This document shows positions 23,821-61,780 of a DNA stretch of 64,000 nucleotides, piece after piece. The stretch is from the NCBI GenBank assembly GCA_021771635.1, contig JAETOQ010000002.1:62001-126000 (forward strand), given 5' to 3'. This DNA is from Oscillospiraceae bacterium. Lineage in GTDB: Bacteria > Bacillota > Clostridia > Oscillospirales > Oscillospiraceae. A model generated the notes under the pieces. The model made no database searches. It had not been told where the DNA came from and worked only from the letters and a program-made list of their open reading frames with translations. Position 1 is the first letter of the stretch; each line of letters starts with the position of its first letter. The position numbers and the translations under genes were made by a program.

Positions 23821-24515
23821 TGGAACAGCTCCTGCGGGACGGTCTTTCCACCCTGGGGCTGCCAGAGGACGGCATCCCCGCTCTGCTCCGGTACGCCGAA
23901 CTGCTGGTGGAGAAAAACAAGGTCATGAATCTGACCGCCATCACAGAGCCGGCGGACATCGCCGCCCTCCATTTTCTGGACAGCGCGGCCCTGCTCGCCC
24001 TGGCGGATCTCCGGGGGAAAACGGTGGTGGATGTGGGCACCGGCGCGGGTTTTCCGGGAATGCCGCTGCGCATTCTGGAGCCGTCCATCCAACTGACTCT
24101 GCTGGATTCCCTCAATAAGCGCATCGGTTTTTTAAAAGAGGTCTGCGATGACCTGGGATTAACGGATGTCAACTGTGTCCATGGCCGGGCGGAAGAATTT
24201 GCCGCCGCCCACCGGGAGTCCTTCGACATCGTCACCTCCCGGGCTGTGGCCACTCTTCCCCTTTTGGCGGAGCTGTGCCTTCCTCTGGTGAAGGAGGGCG
24301 GATACTTTCTTTCCATGAAGGCCGTGGACTCCGACGAGGAGCTGCGTGCCGCCGCCCACGCCATTCGGGTCCTGGGCGGGGCTGTGGAAAAGGCCGTGGA
24401 CTACGCCATTCCGGGCACAGAGATCCGCCACCGCCTGGTCTTTATCAAGAAAGTTCAAAAAAGCCCGGAAAAATATCCCCGTGCATTTGCAAAAATCAAA
24501 AAAAATCCATTATAA
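23820..24515 (+). CDS. rsmG: 16S rRNA (guanine-N7)-methyltransferase RsmG
   Basis: A 231-residue SAM-dependent methyltransferase modifying G527 of 16S rRNA; loss gives low-level streptomycin resistance in other bacteria. Motifs: NLTAITEPADIAALHFLDS (substrate region), VDVGTGAGFPGMPL (SAM site) and VTSRAVATLPLLAEL. It overlaps mscL by 1 bp. rsmG classically follows mnmE–mnmG; those genes are not in this window. Confidence 0.94.
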   Translation: MEQLLRDGLSTLGLPEDGIPALLRYAELLVEKNKVMNLTAITEPADIAALHFLDSAALLALADLRGKTVVDVGTGAGFPGMPLRILEPSIQLTLLDSLNKRIGFLKEVCDDLGLTDVNCVHGRAEEFAAAHRESFDIVTSRAVATLPLLAELCLPLVKEGGYFLSMKAVDSDEELRAAAHAIRVLGGAVEKAVDYAIPGTEIRHRLVFIKKVQKSPEKYPRAFAKIKKNPL

Positions 24516-24571
24516 TATGCACAAAATCATGGCTTCAGCCGCTTTGTGCTATACATTTAGAAAAATTATGT

Positions 24572-24577
24572 TATAAT
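24572..24577 (+). promoter_or_regulatory. Extended −10 promoter of the MinD-like gene
   Basis: TGTTATAAT, i.e. a TGn extension before the consensus TATAAT, in an A/T-rich stretch; no good −35 at 17 bp. Confidence 0.6.
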
Positions 24578-24624
24578 GGATCGCGGAGATTAGTAAATAA
24601 TTTTACAGGGAAGGAGGCCTGTTT

Positions 24625-25377
24625 ATGGAAGTACGCGGACAATGCATTGCCGTCGTTTCCGGCAAAGGCGGAACGGGAAAAACCTCTTTTGCCGCCGGTG
24701 TGGGTTCCGCGCTGGCTTTGAGCGGCAAGCGCGTTCTGTGCCTGGACTGTGACGTGGGCCTCCGCAACCTGGACCTCGCTCTGGGCCTCTCCGACCGGGC
24801 ACTGATGGACTTCTCCGACGTGGCCCAGGGGCGCTGTTCTCTGGGATCCGCCGTGGTGGAGCATCCCAAGCTCCCCGGGCTGTTTCTGCTGACGGCCCCT
24901 GTCCGCAGCCGGGGCCGTCCGGTCAGCGAAGATCAAATGGCGGCCCTGCTGCGTGAGATCCGCCAACGGTATGACTACTGTCTGCTGGATGCGCCCGCAG
25001 GCCTGGGCGGAGGGTTTCTGCTGGCCACCTGCGCCGCGGACCGGGCCGTTGTGGTCACCACAGCGGATGCCTCCTCCCTGCGGGACGCCCAACATACCGT
25101 TATGGAGCTGAACCGTTTTGGCAGCGGTTCCCTGCATCTGGTGGTCAACCGGGTACGAAAAAAAATGCTTCGCAGCATGCACGCAACCATCGACGATGCC
25201 ATCGATAAAGCCGGCCTCCCCCTGATCGGCGTGGTCCCGGAGGATGATGCCCTGCCACTCTGCCTGAACCAGGGCGTCCCGTTACTGCTGGCAGGCGCCC
25301 AGCCCGCCGCCTCCGCCTATCGAAACATCGCCATGCGCATCCAGGGTGGAAAAGTCCCCCTGCTGCGCATCAAATAG
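24625..25377 (+). CDS. MinD-like septum-site ParA-family ATPase
   Basis: A 250-residue ATPase with deviant Walker A SGKGGTGKTS, then LCLDCDVGLRNLDLALGL, which is a MinD hallmark, and switch II text LLDAPAGLGGGF. MinD places the division septum with MinC. The Walker A has Thr where most MinDs have Val, and the C-terminal end (GGKVPLLRIK) is not an obvious amphipathic membrane helix. No minC or minE is adjacent. mgsA follows by 21 bp, which matches clostridial min–mgsA clusters, so MinD is favoured over a FlhG/Mrp relative. Confidence 0.75.
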   Translation: MEVRGQCIAVVSGKGGTGKTSFAAGVGSALALSGKRVLCLDCDVGLRNLDLALGLSDRALMDFSDVAQGRCSLGSAVVEHPKLPGLFLLTAPVRSRGRPVSEDQMAALLREIRQRYDYCLLDAPAGLGGGFLLATCAADRAVVVTTADASSLRDAQHTVMELNRFGSGSLHLVVNRVRKKMLRSMHATIDDAIDKAGLPLIGVVPEDDALPLCLNQGVPLLLAGAQPAASAYRNIAMRIQGGKVPLLRIK

Positions 25378-29650: not shown

Positions 29651-31369
29651 ATGATGCAGAATCGTACCCATACCTGCGGGGAACTCCGGCTCTCCGATGC
29701 CGGCAAGCAGGTGAAGATCGTAGGCTGGATGGAAAACATCCGTGAGGTCTCCTCCAGCCTGGCCTTTATCGTTGTCCGTGACTTCTACGGCACCACCCAG
29801 GTGGTGGCGGAGACCGAGGAGATGGTCAGCACCTTCAAGGCCATCACCAAGGAATCCACCATCAGCGTGGAGGGCGCCGTCCGGGAGCGGGACTCCAAGA
29901 CCAACAAAATGGCCACCGGCGACATCGAGGTCGTCCCCGCCAAGGTCGAGGTCCTGGGCCGCTGCCAGCACAACGAGCTGCCCTTCCAGATCAATCGCAG
30001 CCGGGAGGCCGATGAGGCCCAGCGGCTGAAGTACCGCTATCTGGACCTACGGAACCCCGCCGTCAAGCAGAACATCGTCCTGCGGTGCAACGTGGTGGCC
30101 GCCCTGCGGCAGGCCATGACGGAGCACGGCTTCCTGGAGATCACCACCCCCATCCTTACCGCCTCCTCCCCCGAGGGTGCCCGGGACTATCTGGTCCCCG
30201 CCCGGAACCACCCCGGCAAGTTCTACGCTCTGCCCCAGGCCCCCCAGCAGTTCAAGCAGCTGCTGATGACCTCCGGCTTCGACCGCTACTTCCAGATCGC
30301 CCCCTGCTTCCGGGACGAGGACGCCCGTGCCGACCGCTCCCCCGGCGAGTTCTATCAGCTGGATATGGAGATGGCCTTTGCCTCTCAGGAGGACGTGTTT
30401 GCCGTGCTGGAGGACGTGCTGCCTCCCATCTTCGCCAAGTACGGAAAGTATGACCGTGCCTCCGGCGCCCCCTTTACGCGCATTCCCTTCACCGAGGCCA
30501 TGGAGAAGTACGGCTCCGACAAGCCGGACCTTCGCATCGACCTGACCGTTCAGGATGTCACCGACCTTCTGGGCGGCTGCGGCTTCGGTCCCTTTGAGGG
30601 GAATGTGGTCAAGGCCGTGGTGGTCTCCGACTTCCACGAGACCCGCAAGTTCATCGACAAGACCCTGGCCGATGTGGAGGTGGTCTCCGGCGGCAAGCCC
30701 TACTGGTTCCGCCTGGACGAGAGCGGCGAGATCGTGGGCGGCATCGCCAAGTTCGTCCAGCCCATCAAGGACCAGGTGGTCTCCGCCCTGGGCCTGAAAG
30801 CCAACGACTTCGTGGCCCTGTCCGCCGGCGCTCTGGGCGCCGCCCAGAAGACCGCCGGCGTGCTGGTCAAGACTCTGGGCGCCGCCGTCCCCGGCCACAT
30901 GGACAAGGAGCAGTACGCCTTCTGCTGGATCGTGGACTTCCCCATGTACGAGATCGGCGAGGAGTCCGGGGAGCTGGAATTCTGCCATAACCCCTTCTCC
31001 ATGCCCTCCGGCGGCCTGGACGTGCTGCTGAAGGCTGAGCGGGGTGAGATCGATCCCCTCTCCATCACCGCCGACCAGTACGACCTGGTGTGCAACGGCG
31101 TGGAGCTCTCCTCCGGCGCCGTCCGGAACCACGACCCGGAGATCATGATCAAGGCCTTTGAGCTGGTCCGCCTGGGCGAGGAGGACGTGAAGGCCAAGTT
31201 CCCCGCCATGTACAACGCCTTCACCTACGGCGCGCCCCCCCACGCGGGCATCGCCCCCGGCGTGGACCGCATGGTCATGCTGCTGGCCGGCGAGGACTCT
31301 CCGCGCCCTTTCTTTTTTATCCGCTCTGTGCTATACTGTTTTCATTATTTTCCGGAGGTGTTTCCATGA
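29651..31369 (+). CDS. aspS: aspartyl-tRNA synthetase, C-terminus lost (3'-truncated)
   Basis: A class II AspRS recognisable over its first 550 residues: OB-fold anticodon domain (RTHTCGELRLSDAGKQVKIV), motif 2 (FQIAPCFRDEDARADRSPGE), bacterial insertion (GAD) domain, and motif 3 GIAPGVDRMVMLLAGEDS ending at base 31300. In other AspRSs this continues IREVIAFP and roughly 40 more residues. Here the frame instead runs into 22 residues (PRPFFFIRSVLYCFHYF…) encoded by the promoter and ribosome-binding site of the next gene. The structure suggests a deletion that removed the aspS 3' end. Activity is doubtful. Confidence 0.85.
   Translation: MMQNRTHTCGELRLSDAGKQVKIVGWMENIREVSSSLAFIVVRDFYGTTQVVAETEEMVSTFKAITKESTISVEGAVRERDSKTNKMATGDIEVVPAKVEVLGRCQHNELPFQINRSREADEAQRLKYRYLDLRNPAVKQNIVLRCNVVAALRQAMTEHGFLEITTPILTASSPEGARDYLVPARNHPGKFYALPQAPQQFKQLLMTSGFDRYFQIAPCFRDEDARADRSPGEFYQLDMEMAFASQEDVFAVLEDVLPPIFAKYGKYDRASGAPFTRIPFTEAMEKYGSDKPDLRIDLTVQDVTDLLGGCGFGPFEGNVVKAVVVSDFHETRKFIDKTLADVEVVSGGKPYWFRLDESGEIVGGIAKFVQPIKDQVVSALGLKANDFVALSAGALGAAQKTAGVLVKTLGAAVPGHMDKEQYAFCWIVDFPMYEIGEESGELEFCHNPFSMPSGGLDVLLKAERGEIDPLSITADQYDLVCNGVELSSGAVRNHDPEIMIKAFELVRLGEEDVKAKFPAMYNAFTYGAPPHAGIAPGVDRMVMLLAGEDSPRPFFFIRSVLYCFHYFPEVFP
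31329..31337 (+). promoter_or_regulatory. Extended −10 promoter within the aberrant aspS tail
   Basis: TGCTATACT: TGn followed by TATACT (31332–31337), 29 bp before the ATG of the NagZ-like gene, with GGAGG in between. Confidence 0.6.
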
Positions 31370-32553
31370 ACCGACCGCTGGCGGCACTGCTGGCCGCCCT
31401 GCTCCTGTTTTCCATGACGGCCTGCGGCCCGTCTCAGTCAAATGAATCCTCTCCCCCATCCCCCACGGAGGCCCAGACTCCCGTCCAGCCGGAGGTCCCG
31501 CCCCAGCCCACTCCGGAGGAGCTGTCCGCCCAGGCGGTGGAGGACCTGCTCTCCTCCATGACCTTGGAGGAAAAGGTGGGCCAGCTGTTCTTCGTCCGCT
31601 GTCCGGCGGAGAGCGCCGTGGAGGACGTCACCGCGTACCACCTGGGGGGCTACATCCTCTTTGGCCGGGACACGAAGGACAAGACCGCCAATGAGCTGAT
31701 CCAGGCCATCCAGAGCTATCAGGACGCCGCCGCCATCCCCCTGCTCATCGGCGTGGACGAGGAGGGCGGTACGGTGGTCCGTGTCAGTTCCAACCCCCAC
31801 CTGCGGACATCAAAATTCCAGTCCCCCCAAAAGCTGTTTTTAAGCGGCGGCATGGAGGCCATCCTGGCGGACACCCACGAAAAGGATACGCTGCTGCAAG
31901 CCCTGGGCTTCAACGTGAACCTGGCCCCGGTGGCGGACGTGTCCGCCGATCCGGGCGACTTCATCTATCCCCGGACCTTTGGTCAGGACGCCGCCGCCAC
32001 GGCGGACTACGTGTCCCAGGTCACCGCCCGGATGAGCGCTGACGGCATGGGCAGCGTTCTAAAGCACTTCCCCGGCTACGGAAACAATGTGGACACCCAC
32101 ACCGGCATCGCCGTGGACCAGCGCCCCATGGAGACCTTTGAGGCCTCCGATTTTCTGCCCTTTGAGGCGGGCACCCAGGCCGGGGGCGGTCTGACCGCCG
32201 TGCTGGTAAGCCACAACATCATGTCCTGCGTGGATGACGCTCTGCCCGCCTCCCTCTCCCCCGCCGTTCACGAAATTCTGCGGGAGGACCTGGGCTTTGA
32301 CGGCGTGGTGATGACCGATGACCTGGCCATGGACGCGGTAAGCGCCTACGCGAAGGACGGCGCCGTGGCGGTGATGGCTCTGAAGGCCGGAAACGACCTG
32401 GTCCTCACCACCGACTACCGCTCCCAGATCCCAAAAGTCATCGAGGCCGTGGAAAACGGCGGGCTCTCTGAAGAGGTCATCGACACCGCCTGCCGCCGGG
32501 TCCTGGGGTGGAAATCCGCTCTGGGGCTGCTGGATGGCGGACTGAACGGATAA
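31366..32553 (+). CDS. nagZ: GH3 family beta-N-acetylhexosaminidase-like lipoprotein (NagZ-type)
   Basis: A 395-residue lipoprotein: signal peptide with lipobox SMTAC (Cys20), a Pro/Ser/Gln-rich linker (residues 25–50) and a GH3 TIM barrel from SSMTLEEKVGQLFFV. Family marks are GVDEEGGTVVRV, KHFPGYGNNVDTHTGI with the catalytic His/Asp dyad typical of NagZ, and VVMTDDLAM carrying the nucleophile Asp. It probably removes GlcNAc from muropeptides in wall turnover. It overlaps the aspS frame by 4 bases and has its own promoter. Confidence 0.9.
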   Translation: MNRPLAALLAALLLFSMTACGPSQSNESSPPSPTEAQTPVQPEVPPQPTPEELSAQAVEDLLSSMTLEEKVGQLFFVRCPAESAVEDVTAYHLGGYILFGRDTKDKTANELIQAIQSYQDAAAIPLLIGVDEEGGTVVRVSSNPHLRTSKFQSPQKLFLSGGMEAILADTHEKDTLLQALGFNVNLAPVADVSADPGDFIYPRTFGQDAAATADYVSQVTARMSADGMGSVLKHFPGYGNNVDTHTGIAVDQRPMETFEASDFLPFEAGTQAGGGLTAVLVSHNIMSCVDDALPASLSPAVHEILREDLGFDGVVMTDDLAMDAVSAYAKDGAVAVMALKAGNDLVLTTDYRSQIPKVIEAVENGGLSEEVIDTACRRVLGWKSALGLLDGGLNG

Positions 32554-42354: not shown

Positions 42355-42598
42355 ACAAAAAAACGCCCCGAGCCGGTTTTCGGCTCAGGGCGAGTTAAAG
42401 CAACCCGTGGTTCCACCTGAATTCGCATCTGGCTGATGCGCACTCTGTCCCGGTAACGGCGGGGACCGGCGGGACATTTCCGTCCCGCGGCTCAAAGGCG
42501 CCTTCTCCCCTTCTCCGCAGGGACTTGCACCGACCGTCCCCTCTCTGGTCGCGGAGCTTGTGAGGATACTGTTCCCTCTCACAGCCTTTTTATTCGTG
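42355..42598 (-). promoter_or_regulatory. T-box leader (tRNA-Gly sensor) upstream of glyS
   Basis: On the minus strand: CCAGAGAGGGGACGGTCGGT…GCAAGTCCC, then AAGGCGCCTTTGAGCC with specifier GGC (Gly) at 42500–42502, the T-box sequence AGGTGGAACCACGGGTT at 42402–42418, and a terminator GCCCTGAGCCG/CGGCTCGGGGC with T7 near 42357–42390. The A in TGGA predicts a U discriminator, matching bacterial tRNA-Gly, so specifier and acceptor-end prediction agree. Confidence 0.95.
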
Positions 42599-42604
42599 GG
42601 TGAA

Positions 42605-42633
42605 AGTTTATCATGTTTTTTCCGGAATGTCAA
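42605..42633 (-). promoter_or_regulatory. Sigma-A promoter of glyS
   Basis: On the minus strand: consensus TTGACA (42628–42633), 17-bp spacer, TAAACT (42605–42610), just upstream of the T-box. Confidence 0.85.
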
Positions 42634-59639: not shown

Positions 59640-61559
59640 ATGAAAGATGGTTTTGTTTCTGTCGCCTGCGGCACGCCGAAGCTGCGGCTGGTGGACTGTG
59701 ACTACAACGCGGAGCAGACATTCACCATGATGCGGGCCGCTGAAAAGGCCGGCGTTAAGGTGCTGGTCCTGCCGGAACTGGGGCTGACAGGCTATACCTG
59801 CGGCGACCTGTTCTATCAGGACACGCTGCTGCGGGGCGCGGAGGAGGCGCTGTCCACCGTATTGGCGGCCACCCGGAATTTGGAAGTGGTGACCGCGGTT
59901 GGCCTTCCGGTACGAGTTAACAACAAACTGTATAATTGTGCCGCAATTATACAAAAAGGAGAAATTTTAGGTCTGATTCCCAAGACACATCTGCCCAATT
60001 ACAGCGAATTCTACGAGAAGCGGCAGTTCGCTCCGGCACCGTCGGAGGATGATTATATCGCCTTCTGCGGCCAGGAGTCGGTGCCCTTCGGCGCCGGACA
60101 GATCTTTGTCTGTGAGGATATGCCTGATCTGACGCTTGGCTTTGAGATCTGCGAGGACCTGTGGGCGCCGGAGTCTCCCTCCGTCCGCATGGCCCAGGCA
60201 GGCGCGACCATCATCGGCAATCTGTCCGCCAGCAACGATATCATCGGAAAGGACAGCTACCGCCGCCAGCTGGTGACCATGCAGTCGGCAAAGCTGCTGT
60301 GCGGCTATGTCTACTCCAGCGCCGGCGAGGGCGAGTCCACCTCTGACGTGGTGTTCGGCGCCCACCAGATGATCGCGGAGAATGGAAGCCTGCTGGCGGA
60401 ACGCCGCTTTGACGGCGGTCTGCTGATCTCTGAGATCGACGTGCAGAGACTGTCTTACGAACGGCGCCGGACCCAGATGTTCGGCGAGGCGGAGGACGGC
60501 AGGAAACATTACGCGGGCTTCTCCCTGACCCTCTCCCCCACCAAGCTGACCCGCTACGTGGCCCCCATGCCGTTTGTCCCCGAGGGCAAGGAGGACCGGG
60601 ACGCCCGCTGCCGGGAGATTTTGCTCATCGCCTCCCTGGGACTGAAGCAGCGGCTGGAGCACACCGGGGCCAAGACCGCGGTGGTGGGACTCTCCGGAGG
60701 CCTGGATTCCACCCTGGCGGTCCTCATTACGGGGCTTGCCATGAAGATGCTGGACCGGCCCATGACGGACATCGTGGCCGTCACCATGCCCTGCTTCGGC
60801 ACCACGGACCGCACAAAGAACAACGCCGTCATTCTGGCGGAGCAGATGGGCGCCACGCTGCGGACTGTGGATATCTCAAATACCGTCCGCAGCCACTTCA
60901 AGGACATTGGCCACGATATGGCGGACCACTCCGTCACCTTTGAAAACGGCCAGGCCCGGGAGCGGACACAGGTCCTGATGGATATCGCCAACGCCACCGG
61001 AGGCCTCGTCATCGGCACCGGAGACCTTTCCGAGCTGGCCCTGGGCTGGTGCACCTACAACGGCGACCACATGAGCATGTACGGCGTCAACGCCTCCATC
61101 CCCAAAACACTGGTGCGCCATCTGGTGGGTTATCTGGCCCGGGACAACGAGGGCAAGGACGAGGCTCTCCACGATGTGCTGGAGGATATTCTGGACACCC
61201 CTGTATCGCCGGAACTGCTGCCCGCCGTCAAGGGCGAGATCAGCCAGCGGACGGAGGACTTGGTGGGTCCCTATGAACTGCATGACTTTTTCCTGTACTA
61301 TGTCCTCCGCTGGGGCTTCTCCCCCGGAAAGGTGTACCGTCTAGCTCTGTATGCCCTGGGCAGACAGTACAGCCGGGAGGTGATCCTGAAGTGGCTGAAG
61401 ACTTTCTACCGCCGCTTCTTCACCCAGCAGTTCAAGCGAAACTGTCTCCCCGACGGCCCCAAGGTTGGCTCCGTGGCCCTCTCCCCCCGCGGCGACTGGC
61501 GGATGCCCAGCGACGCGAAGTGGACGCTTTGGCAGGCGGAGCTGGAGACGCTGGAATAA
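59640..61559 (+). CDS. nadE: glutamine-dependent NAD(+) synthetase
   Basis: A 639-residue two-domain enzyme making NAD from nicotinate adenine dinucleotide. The N-terminal nitrilase-type glutaminase has LPELGLTGYTCGD (Glu), a Lys in IPKTHLPNY and the nucleophile Cys in LGFEICEDLW. The C-terminal synthetase has the PP-loop GLSGGLDSTLAVL and TGDLSELALGWCTYNGDH. It ends RMPSDAKWTLWQAELETLE, a piece repeated in the small ORF at 61646. GAAGGAG precedes ATG 59640. Confidence 0.96.
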   Translation: MKDGFVSVACGTPKLRLVDCDYNAEQTFTMMRAAEKAGVKVLVLPELGLTGYTCGDLFYQDTLLRGAEEALSTVLAATRNLEVVTAVGLPVRVNNKLYNCAAIIQKGEILGLIPKTHLPNYSEFYEKRQFAPAPSEDDYIAFCGQESVPFGAGQIFVCEDMPDLTLGFEICEDLWAPESPSVRMAQAGATIIGNLSASNDIIGKDSYRRQLVTMQSAKLLCGYVYSSAGEGESTSDVVFGAHQMIAENGSLLAERRFDGGLLISEIDVQRLSYERRRTQMFGEAEDGRKHYAGFSLTLSPTKLTRYVAPMPFVPEGKEDRDARCREILLIASLGLKQRLEHTGAKTAVVGLSGGLDSTLAVLITGLAMKMLDRPMTDIVAVTMPCFGTTDRTKNNAVILAEQMGATLRTVDISNTVRSHFKDIGHDMADHSVTFENGQARERTQVLMDIANATGGLVIGTGDLSELALGWCTYNGDHMSMYGVNASIPKTLVRHLVGYLARDNEGKDEALHDVLEDILDTPVSPELLPAVKGEISQRTEDLVGPYELHDFFLYYVLRWGFSPGKVYRLALYALGRQYSREVILKWLKTFYRRFFTQQFKRNCLPDGPKVGSVALSPRGDWRMPSDAKWTLWQAELETLE

Positions 61560-61592
61560 ACCGCGAATGAGGAGCCAGTCGCCTGTTCGGGG

Positions 61593-61629
61593 CCCCCGCG
61601 AAAACCCAGCGGAGCGGTTTTTGTGGGGG
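61593..61629 (+). repeat. Hairpin repeat with CAGCGGAGC loop, copy 2
   Basis: CCCCCGCGAAAACC (61593–61606) pairs with GGTTTTTGTGGGGG (61616–61629) around the loop CAGCGGAGC. All 14 positions pair, two or more as G·U. It lies shortly after the nadE stop and abuts the AAGGAGG of the next small ORF. Confidence 0.65.
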
Positions 61630-61645
61630 AAGGAGGAACTGCGGA

Positions 61646-61780
61646 ATGAGTGAGCTTTCGCCGCAGGCGGAAGCGAGGGATATGCAGCAAGTGACGACGC
61701 GGCGGATGCCCAGCGACGCAAAGATGAATTTGTGGCAGGCGGAACTGGAGACGCTGGAATCATCTGGGTACGAAAAATAG
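61646..61780 (+). CDS. 44-residue ORF duplicating the NadE C-terminus
   Basis: A short frame with a strong AAGGAGG site (61630–61636). It encodes MSELSPQAEARDMQQVTTR then RMPSDAKMNLWQAELETLE, which repeats the last residues of NadE, and ends SSGYEK. The underlying DNA copies are 61501–61556 and 61704–61759 (48 of 56 bases identical). It may be a pseudogene fragment left by a duplication, or a translated peptide; the substitutions keep the frame open and mostly keep the protein sequence. Confidence 0.5.
   Translation: MSELSPQAEARDMQQVTTRRMPSDAKMNLWQAELETLESSGYEK

Follow-up and report, generated by a model that had tools for sequence, protein, structure and literature searches.

Aspartyl-tRNA synthetase (AspRS), the product of aspS, is an essential enzyme. 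When mixed communities are assembled, stretches shared between species are the places where the assembly graph tangles. Among small dispersed bacterial repeats, YPAL is reported to have target duplications that vary from 3 to 26 bp (PMC2229807). We analysed a stretch of 64,000 nt (the 'window') from a draft genome (designated G000; 2.80 Mb in 170 contigs, completeness 94.7%, contamination 3.06). Its AspRS resembles the bacterial enzymes (NF001750 / TIGR00459, class IIb aminoacyl-tRNA synthetases), being 76 to 95% identical to those of related Clostridia. It differs from them in that the last ~38 profile positions, with the segment IRE[IV]I.FP, have given way to 22 residues translated from non-coding DNA.

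The aspS open reading frame (29651-31369, 572 aa) ends in ...MLLAGEDS-PRPFFFIRSVLYCFHYFPEVFP*. It is homologous with its relatives through codon 550 (base 31300), and then departs from them. The frame scores 630.6 bits with NF001750 (cut-off 443) and 507.3 bits with TIGR00459 (cut-off 373.85); aspartate--tRNA ligase is its best model, and the aspartate--tRNA(Asn) models remain below their cut-off. The NCBIfam AspRS profile aligns to residues 2-552 and stops at profile position 552 of 590. With PF00152 the alignment ends at position 297 of 308, whereas the genome's LysRS-like and AsnRS-like frames extend to 307. Through what we take to be motif 3 the sequence is normal, and the IRE[IV]I.FP segment that follows it is missing. 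The loss of the C-terminus after ...MLLAGEDS, reported in a preliminary description of this DNA, is therefore borne out by the frame, by the profile end and by the relatives: we confirm that the AspRS frame loses its C-terminus about 40 codons early. In other respects, judged from its sequence, this is a normal bacterial aspS, present once in a draft genome.

The nature of the junction was apparent from the nearest syntenic relative, G028 (locus L005), whose AspRS is 95% identical and in which the aspS-nagZ order is kept. A nagZ homologue also directly follows aspS in G007, G025, G035 (L022), G014 (L023) and G010 (L032); in the window, the best NCBIfam match of the nagZ-like gene (154.4 bits) is under its cut-off of 207. 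Relative to G028, about 160 bp are absent between two ACTC tetramers, one at GAGGACTC and the other in the terminator loop AAACTC, and the two tetramers are fused in the window. What is absent is the last part of codon 550, the 41 codons after it, the stop codon and, from the terminator hairpin, the 5' arm. Past the junction come 19 bases (31300-31318, TCCGCGCCCTTTCTTTTTT) that match, in the relatives' aspS terminator, the 3' arm and the T-run. A 4-bp microhomology at the junction is likely, because the hairpin of L022, which carries AAACTCTCCGC, resembles the right side of the window. The false aspS frame stops at a TGA (31367-31369) overlapping the ATG of nagZ (31366). The replacement DNA had been described as the -10 and ribosome-binding site of nagZ; this may hold for the -10-like TATACT and for GGAGG, which lies downstream of it (31354-31358; a ribosome-binding site by eye), and fails for the first 19 bases, which match a terminator and not a promoter. 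Coordinates are collected in the table.

Table. Features of the aspS-nagZ junction and locations of R1 elements
Feature	Position	Strand	Basis or remark
AspRS coding sequence, codons 1-550	29651..31300	+	homology with relatives
Junction ACTC	31296..31299	+	found both on the aspS side (GAGGACTC) and, in relatives, in the terminator loop (AAACTC); compared with L005, L022
aspS terminator remnant: 3' arm and T-run, without 5' arm	31300..31318	+	comparison with the full hairpins of G028, G007
Frame extension in non-coding DNA, 22 codons and stop	31301..31369	+	ORF reading
TATACT, -10-like hexamer before nagZ	31332..31337	+	by eye
nagZ-like gene	31366..32553	+	glycoside hydrolase family 3 by names of matches
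R1 element directly after aspS, between two aspS 3'-end copies	L058 5822-6262; L035 7858-7980; L059 5824-5941		covarying structure
R1 element directly after aspS, between two aspS 3'-end copies	L079 5821-5942; L099 5799-5920; L132 4003-4130		covarying structure
R1 copies outside the window	G000:C91:40434-40549 and 24508-24630		and 16 further places in G000

Among the relatives, a C-terminus with IRE[IV]I.FP and roughly 30 to 45 further residues was present in 78 of 80 GTDB-220 aspS loci, the remaining two (L062 and L082) being cut by contig ends. An order-wide search of 147 genomes (query, the last 141 residues of the G028 AspRS; E up to 1e-20) gave a match in 140 of them, with at least 150 matches; among the 150 listed, that of the window was the sole one ending at query position 103, and the other 149 reached position 133 or more. 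Relatives whose AspRS naturally ends in this way, a possibility left open earlier, were found neither among the 78 uncut loci nor among the other 149 matches listed. Even the AsnRS-like and LysRS-like frames of the window's genome retain a segment, IR(D/E)V..(H/F)P, similar to the one that aspS has lost. These observations count against the view that the shortened AspRS, with its accidental tail of 22 residues, is functional and that this lineage can do without the C-terminal segment. In favour of that view are the purifying selection on the remaining codons and a sequence that is normal through the presumed motif 3; we regard it as very unlikely.

No second AspRS was found in the 2.80 Mb of G000; beyond the one AspRS, similar frames there are LysRS-like and AsnRS-like. 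The missing tail of 41 residues had no match elsewhere in G000, and the same query matched 33 of 37 genomes; the four without a match were G000 itself, G008, whose gene runs into a contig end, and two genomes with no close aspS among the matches listed (G017, G022). Relocation of the lost tail to another place in the assembled genome is thus not supported. GatB (GatB_N) was not found in G000, 94.7% complete, and the control search was positive in 12 of 14 genomes. Compensation had been suggested either by a second aspS or by a non-discriminating AspRS acting with GatCAB. In G000 (94.7% complete) the former has no candidate, and the latter finds no GatB and aspartate--tRNA(Asn) models under their cut-off.

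In three genomes of the same genus, a second AspRS occurs beside the usual one (G003:C47:782-2398, G019:C27:796-2412 and G009:C40:5-1171), and is 51 to 54% identical to that of the window. By analogy with these three genomes, the truncated copy could be a relic, a second AspRS being encoded in the part of the genome missing from the bin (completeness 94.7%). Other same-genus genomes lacked such a second copy among the matches listed, none was present in the 2.80 Mb of G000, and the truncated aspS gave no clear sign of relaxed selection; we consider this explanation very unlikely.

Selection was estimated on codons 11-550. The dN/dS values of G000 against nine relatives, none of them of the same species (smallest dS to G000, 0.245), were 0.09 to 0.24, compared to 0.08 to 0.20 for the listed pairs of relatives. 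Two of the nine values (0.225 and 0.239) exceeded the relatives' maximum of 0.204, and the nonsynonymous counts to the same partners were alike. The remaining aspS codons look to be under purifying selection. Relaxed selection on the body of the gene was not clearly seen, values being near the range of the relatives, with two above it.

The soundness of the contig was assessed by comparing 50 window frames with stretches of five relatives. Two frames were flagged as 'C-missing', namely aspS and a doubtful frame of 82 codons (42385-42633), and seven as 'N-missing', of which the two inspected (52833 and 53550) were start-codon differences. General decay in the contig was not seen, aspS and the one doubtful frame alone being C-missing among the 50 compared. 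Gene order and gene-by-gene identities to five relatives are alike on both sides of the junction and G+C is 0.60 on each side, so that a chimaera of two distant species at this point is rejected. There is no N in the 64,000 nt of the window.

We consider it probable that the missing end of aspS is an assembly gap closed without its contents. The assembly would have broken at a stretch identical across many related species, and the two ends would then have been joined with the ~160 bp or more between them left out; some relatives have a repeat-bearing array a short way past this shared aspS stretch. Of 31 relatives' sequences, 12 share the 31-mer from codon 551 unchanged, compared to a median of 3 over the gene. 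This value of 12 is the joint maximum, reached in two clusters alone, around -102 and from -9 to +1, and the junction is at -5 to -2; a third cluster, around -390, reaches 11. The left breakpoint is therefore in one of the three most shared stretches of aspS, at sequence common to related genomes (12 of 31 sequences), as would be the case for an assembly artefact. Moreover, the independent contig JAFOCY010000153.1 (L062, a cattle-colon genome) ends at GAGGACTCC, at most 1 base from the breakpoint of the window; this coincidence was spotted afterwards, and in other relatives the contig ends within aspS fall at different places, which weakens the argument. The essential nature of the enzyme, with no replacement found (one AspRS, no tail elsewhere, no GatB), a gene body without clear relaxation (dN/dS 0.09-0.24), and the flagging of aspS and one doubtful frame alone among the 50 all favour an assembly gap.

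A k-mer assembler alone, however, does not join ends on four shared bases: a scaffolding or gap-closing step is needed, or real reads across the junction. A short microhomology beside a hairpin also marks a real deletion, and the absence from the window of any N, of chimaerism and of general contig decay, as well as the two dN/dS values above the relatives' maximum, weigh against the assembly gap. The main rival is then a genuine and very recent deletion by slippage between the ACTC tetramers of aspS and of the terminator loop, carried by all or much of the sequenced population; either the enzyme would be damaged and the lineage dying, or cells with an intact gene would coexist. It accounts for the clean join with 4 bp of microhomology at a hairpin, for a local synteny that matches, for the lack of any other credible defect among the genes compared, and for a window without N. 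It has to accommodate the loss of the end of an essential enzyme with no substitute found, and the absence of clearly relaxed selection; we think it rather unlikely. The deletion joining aspS to the nagZ promoter, as first proposed, is thus retained as a local loss joining aspS to the sequence that precedes nagZ, the lost segment being present in every uncut relative listed. As to its cause, a longer aspS lost in assembly, which had been named as the case that would overturn that proposal, is now the better reading, in view of the shared stretch at the breakpoint, selection, and element copies near contig ends. Word searches of open-licence literature on AspRS C-terminal truncation, on aspS as an integration site and on truncated genes in draft genomes gave nothing bearing on the case among the results listed.

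The region downstream of aspS was surveyed in 100 distinct loci with at least 250 bp of downstream sequence, using a 45-base gene-end probe with at most 9 changes. The probe recurred 146 to 222 bp past the stop codon in eight of them (G013, G025, G024, G034, L064, L079, L099 and L132); G013 and L064 have a third copy as well. One type of structured spacer is shared by six of the eight, and G034 (L025) and L064 contain another. L079, which has a duplicated aspS end, encodes the AspRS nearest to that of the window among the 80 GTDB-220 loci. Such duplications at 8% of the distinct loci, with a small element between the copies of the aspS 3' end, add to the case for an assembly gap. No duplicated end was found at the window's own aspS, nor in G028 or G007, and the lack of an element at the window's aspS tells against such a gap; that an array there would explain the position of the gap is conjecture, none being seen. 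Recombination between duplicated aspS ends is not favoured as the cause, because the missing part starts some 50 to 70 bp upstream of the duplications in the relatives.

The more frequent spacer belongs to a family that we named 'R1'. Its covariance model (121 positions, 29 pairs) was built from 11 aspS-type spacers and similar ones at other genes. In 53 aligned matches (49 sources, 51 distinct rows), 27 of the 29 pairs were changed on both sides and 95.4% of cells paired, in a test that included most of the model-building sequences and an alignment fitted to the model, both of which favour R1. None of 500 shuffles reached the observed pairing, and slid versions were far below. Against Rfam 15 (six loci, E up to 1), a single overlapping row was obtained, to a viral model below threshold at E 0.92, so that these loci give R1 no plausible Rfam match. 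At E up to 1e-4, R1 matches were found in 21 of 60 genomes, that of the window included, and in none of the other 39; counts were at least 60 in G042, 39 in G013, 36 in G024 and 17 in G000, where a laxer search gave 18.

R1 elements tend to be flanked by long direct repeats. Of 36 elements examined over the 160 bp to either side, 29 had a repeat score of 18 or more and seven did not, compared to a 99th percentile of 13.5 and a maximum of 47.5 for 500 random places, drawn from a pool which itself contains such elements. The repeats are 29 to 101 bp long and consist of gene 3' ends, gene 5' ends (which by eye we take to be those of hisS and uvrB) and one apparent tRNA gene, presumably for leucine. 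The last case concerns a G000 copy (L238, around 1501-1631), flanked on each side by a near-identical repeat of 101 bp that by eye is an apparently complete leucine tRNA gene. The terminal hairpin of R1 was 0 to 5 bases from the second repeat copy in 33 of 35 elements, a set that adds to the 29 with repeats six more, taken at aspS and elsewhere, and leaves out the seven that lack repeats. Among elements with a leader of at least 14 bases, a run of 7 or more bases complementary to the start of the second copy was found in 10 of 30 own pairs and in 34 of 870 mismatched pairs; runs were shorter in the remaining 20 own pairs. When the bodies of 36 elements were compared, again a set from which those without repeats were left out, mean likeness was 0.726 for the same target in different genomes (29 pairs), 0.634 for different targets in one genome (40 pairs), and 0.638 for unrelated pairs (561 pairs). 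As bodies are alike by target and not by genome, there is no sign of recent spread within a genome, and each lineage would go with its site, either by descent with losses or by homing.

A second type of element lies in the window itself (61560-61760), with a hairpin GGGGCCCCCGCGAAAACC...GGTTTTTGTGGGGG. It follows a gene of 639 codons (59640-61559) and is followed by an imperfect copy of the 3' end of that gene (8 of 45 bases changed). In G033 (L046), a frame with a similar end has the same arrangement, with 2 of 45 bases changed.

Copies of R1 are over-represented at contig ends in G000: 5 of 18 are within 150 bp of an end (0.33 expected) and 7 of 18 within 525 bp (1.15 expected), an enrichment tested after the pattern had been seen. 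Such places therefore seem to break the G000 assembly, which is a further point for an assembly gap at aspS. These traits suggest, tentatively, a wider reading that we hold possible though not probable: the aspS 3' end may, in this group of bacteria, be a resident site of undescribed small elements (a model of 121 positions and a 5' leader), structured and protein-free, that home to fixed gene ends. Each would sit between two copies of a gene end (or start), its 3' hairpin abutting the second copy, its 5' leader tending to complement the start of that copy as its own address, and its lineage tied to one address; the missing AspRS end, whether it went in assembly or from the cell itself, would be collateral damage of such an array. 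The link between the AspRS end and the array is the weakest part of this reading.

If the truncation is real, a free-living bacterium carries a damaged AspRS for which no substitute was found, and would put dispensability within the class IIb synthetases to the test. It is more likely that essential genes of draft genomes can silently lose their ends at stretches shared between species, with neither N nor contig end as a sign. The likeness to the contig breaks and collapsed stretches generally known from draft metagenomes is in the breakpoint, which lies in sequence identical across species, and in the elements near contig ends; the difference is that the contig of the window is continuous, without N in the window.

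As far as the alignments tell, R1 is a family with covariation and no plausible Rfam match whose members are dispersed at gene ends, and it is of more interest than the aspS truncation. If it withstands testing, it would represent a small bacterial element of a new kind, combining covariation, location at gene ends, long duplications, target-linked lineages and a target-complementary leader. Open-licence word searches on small elements with long duplications gave, among the results listed, papers on other small bacterial repeats alone. Among these, the small non-autonomous YPAL/RU-2 repeats, as reported (PMC2229807), are like R1 in being under ~200 bp, non-coding, structured, dispersed between genes and flanked by target duplications. 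R1 differs from them in that its duplications are 29 to 101 bp long and made of gene ends, and in that its bodies resemble one another by target site more than by genome.
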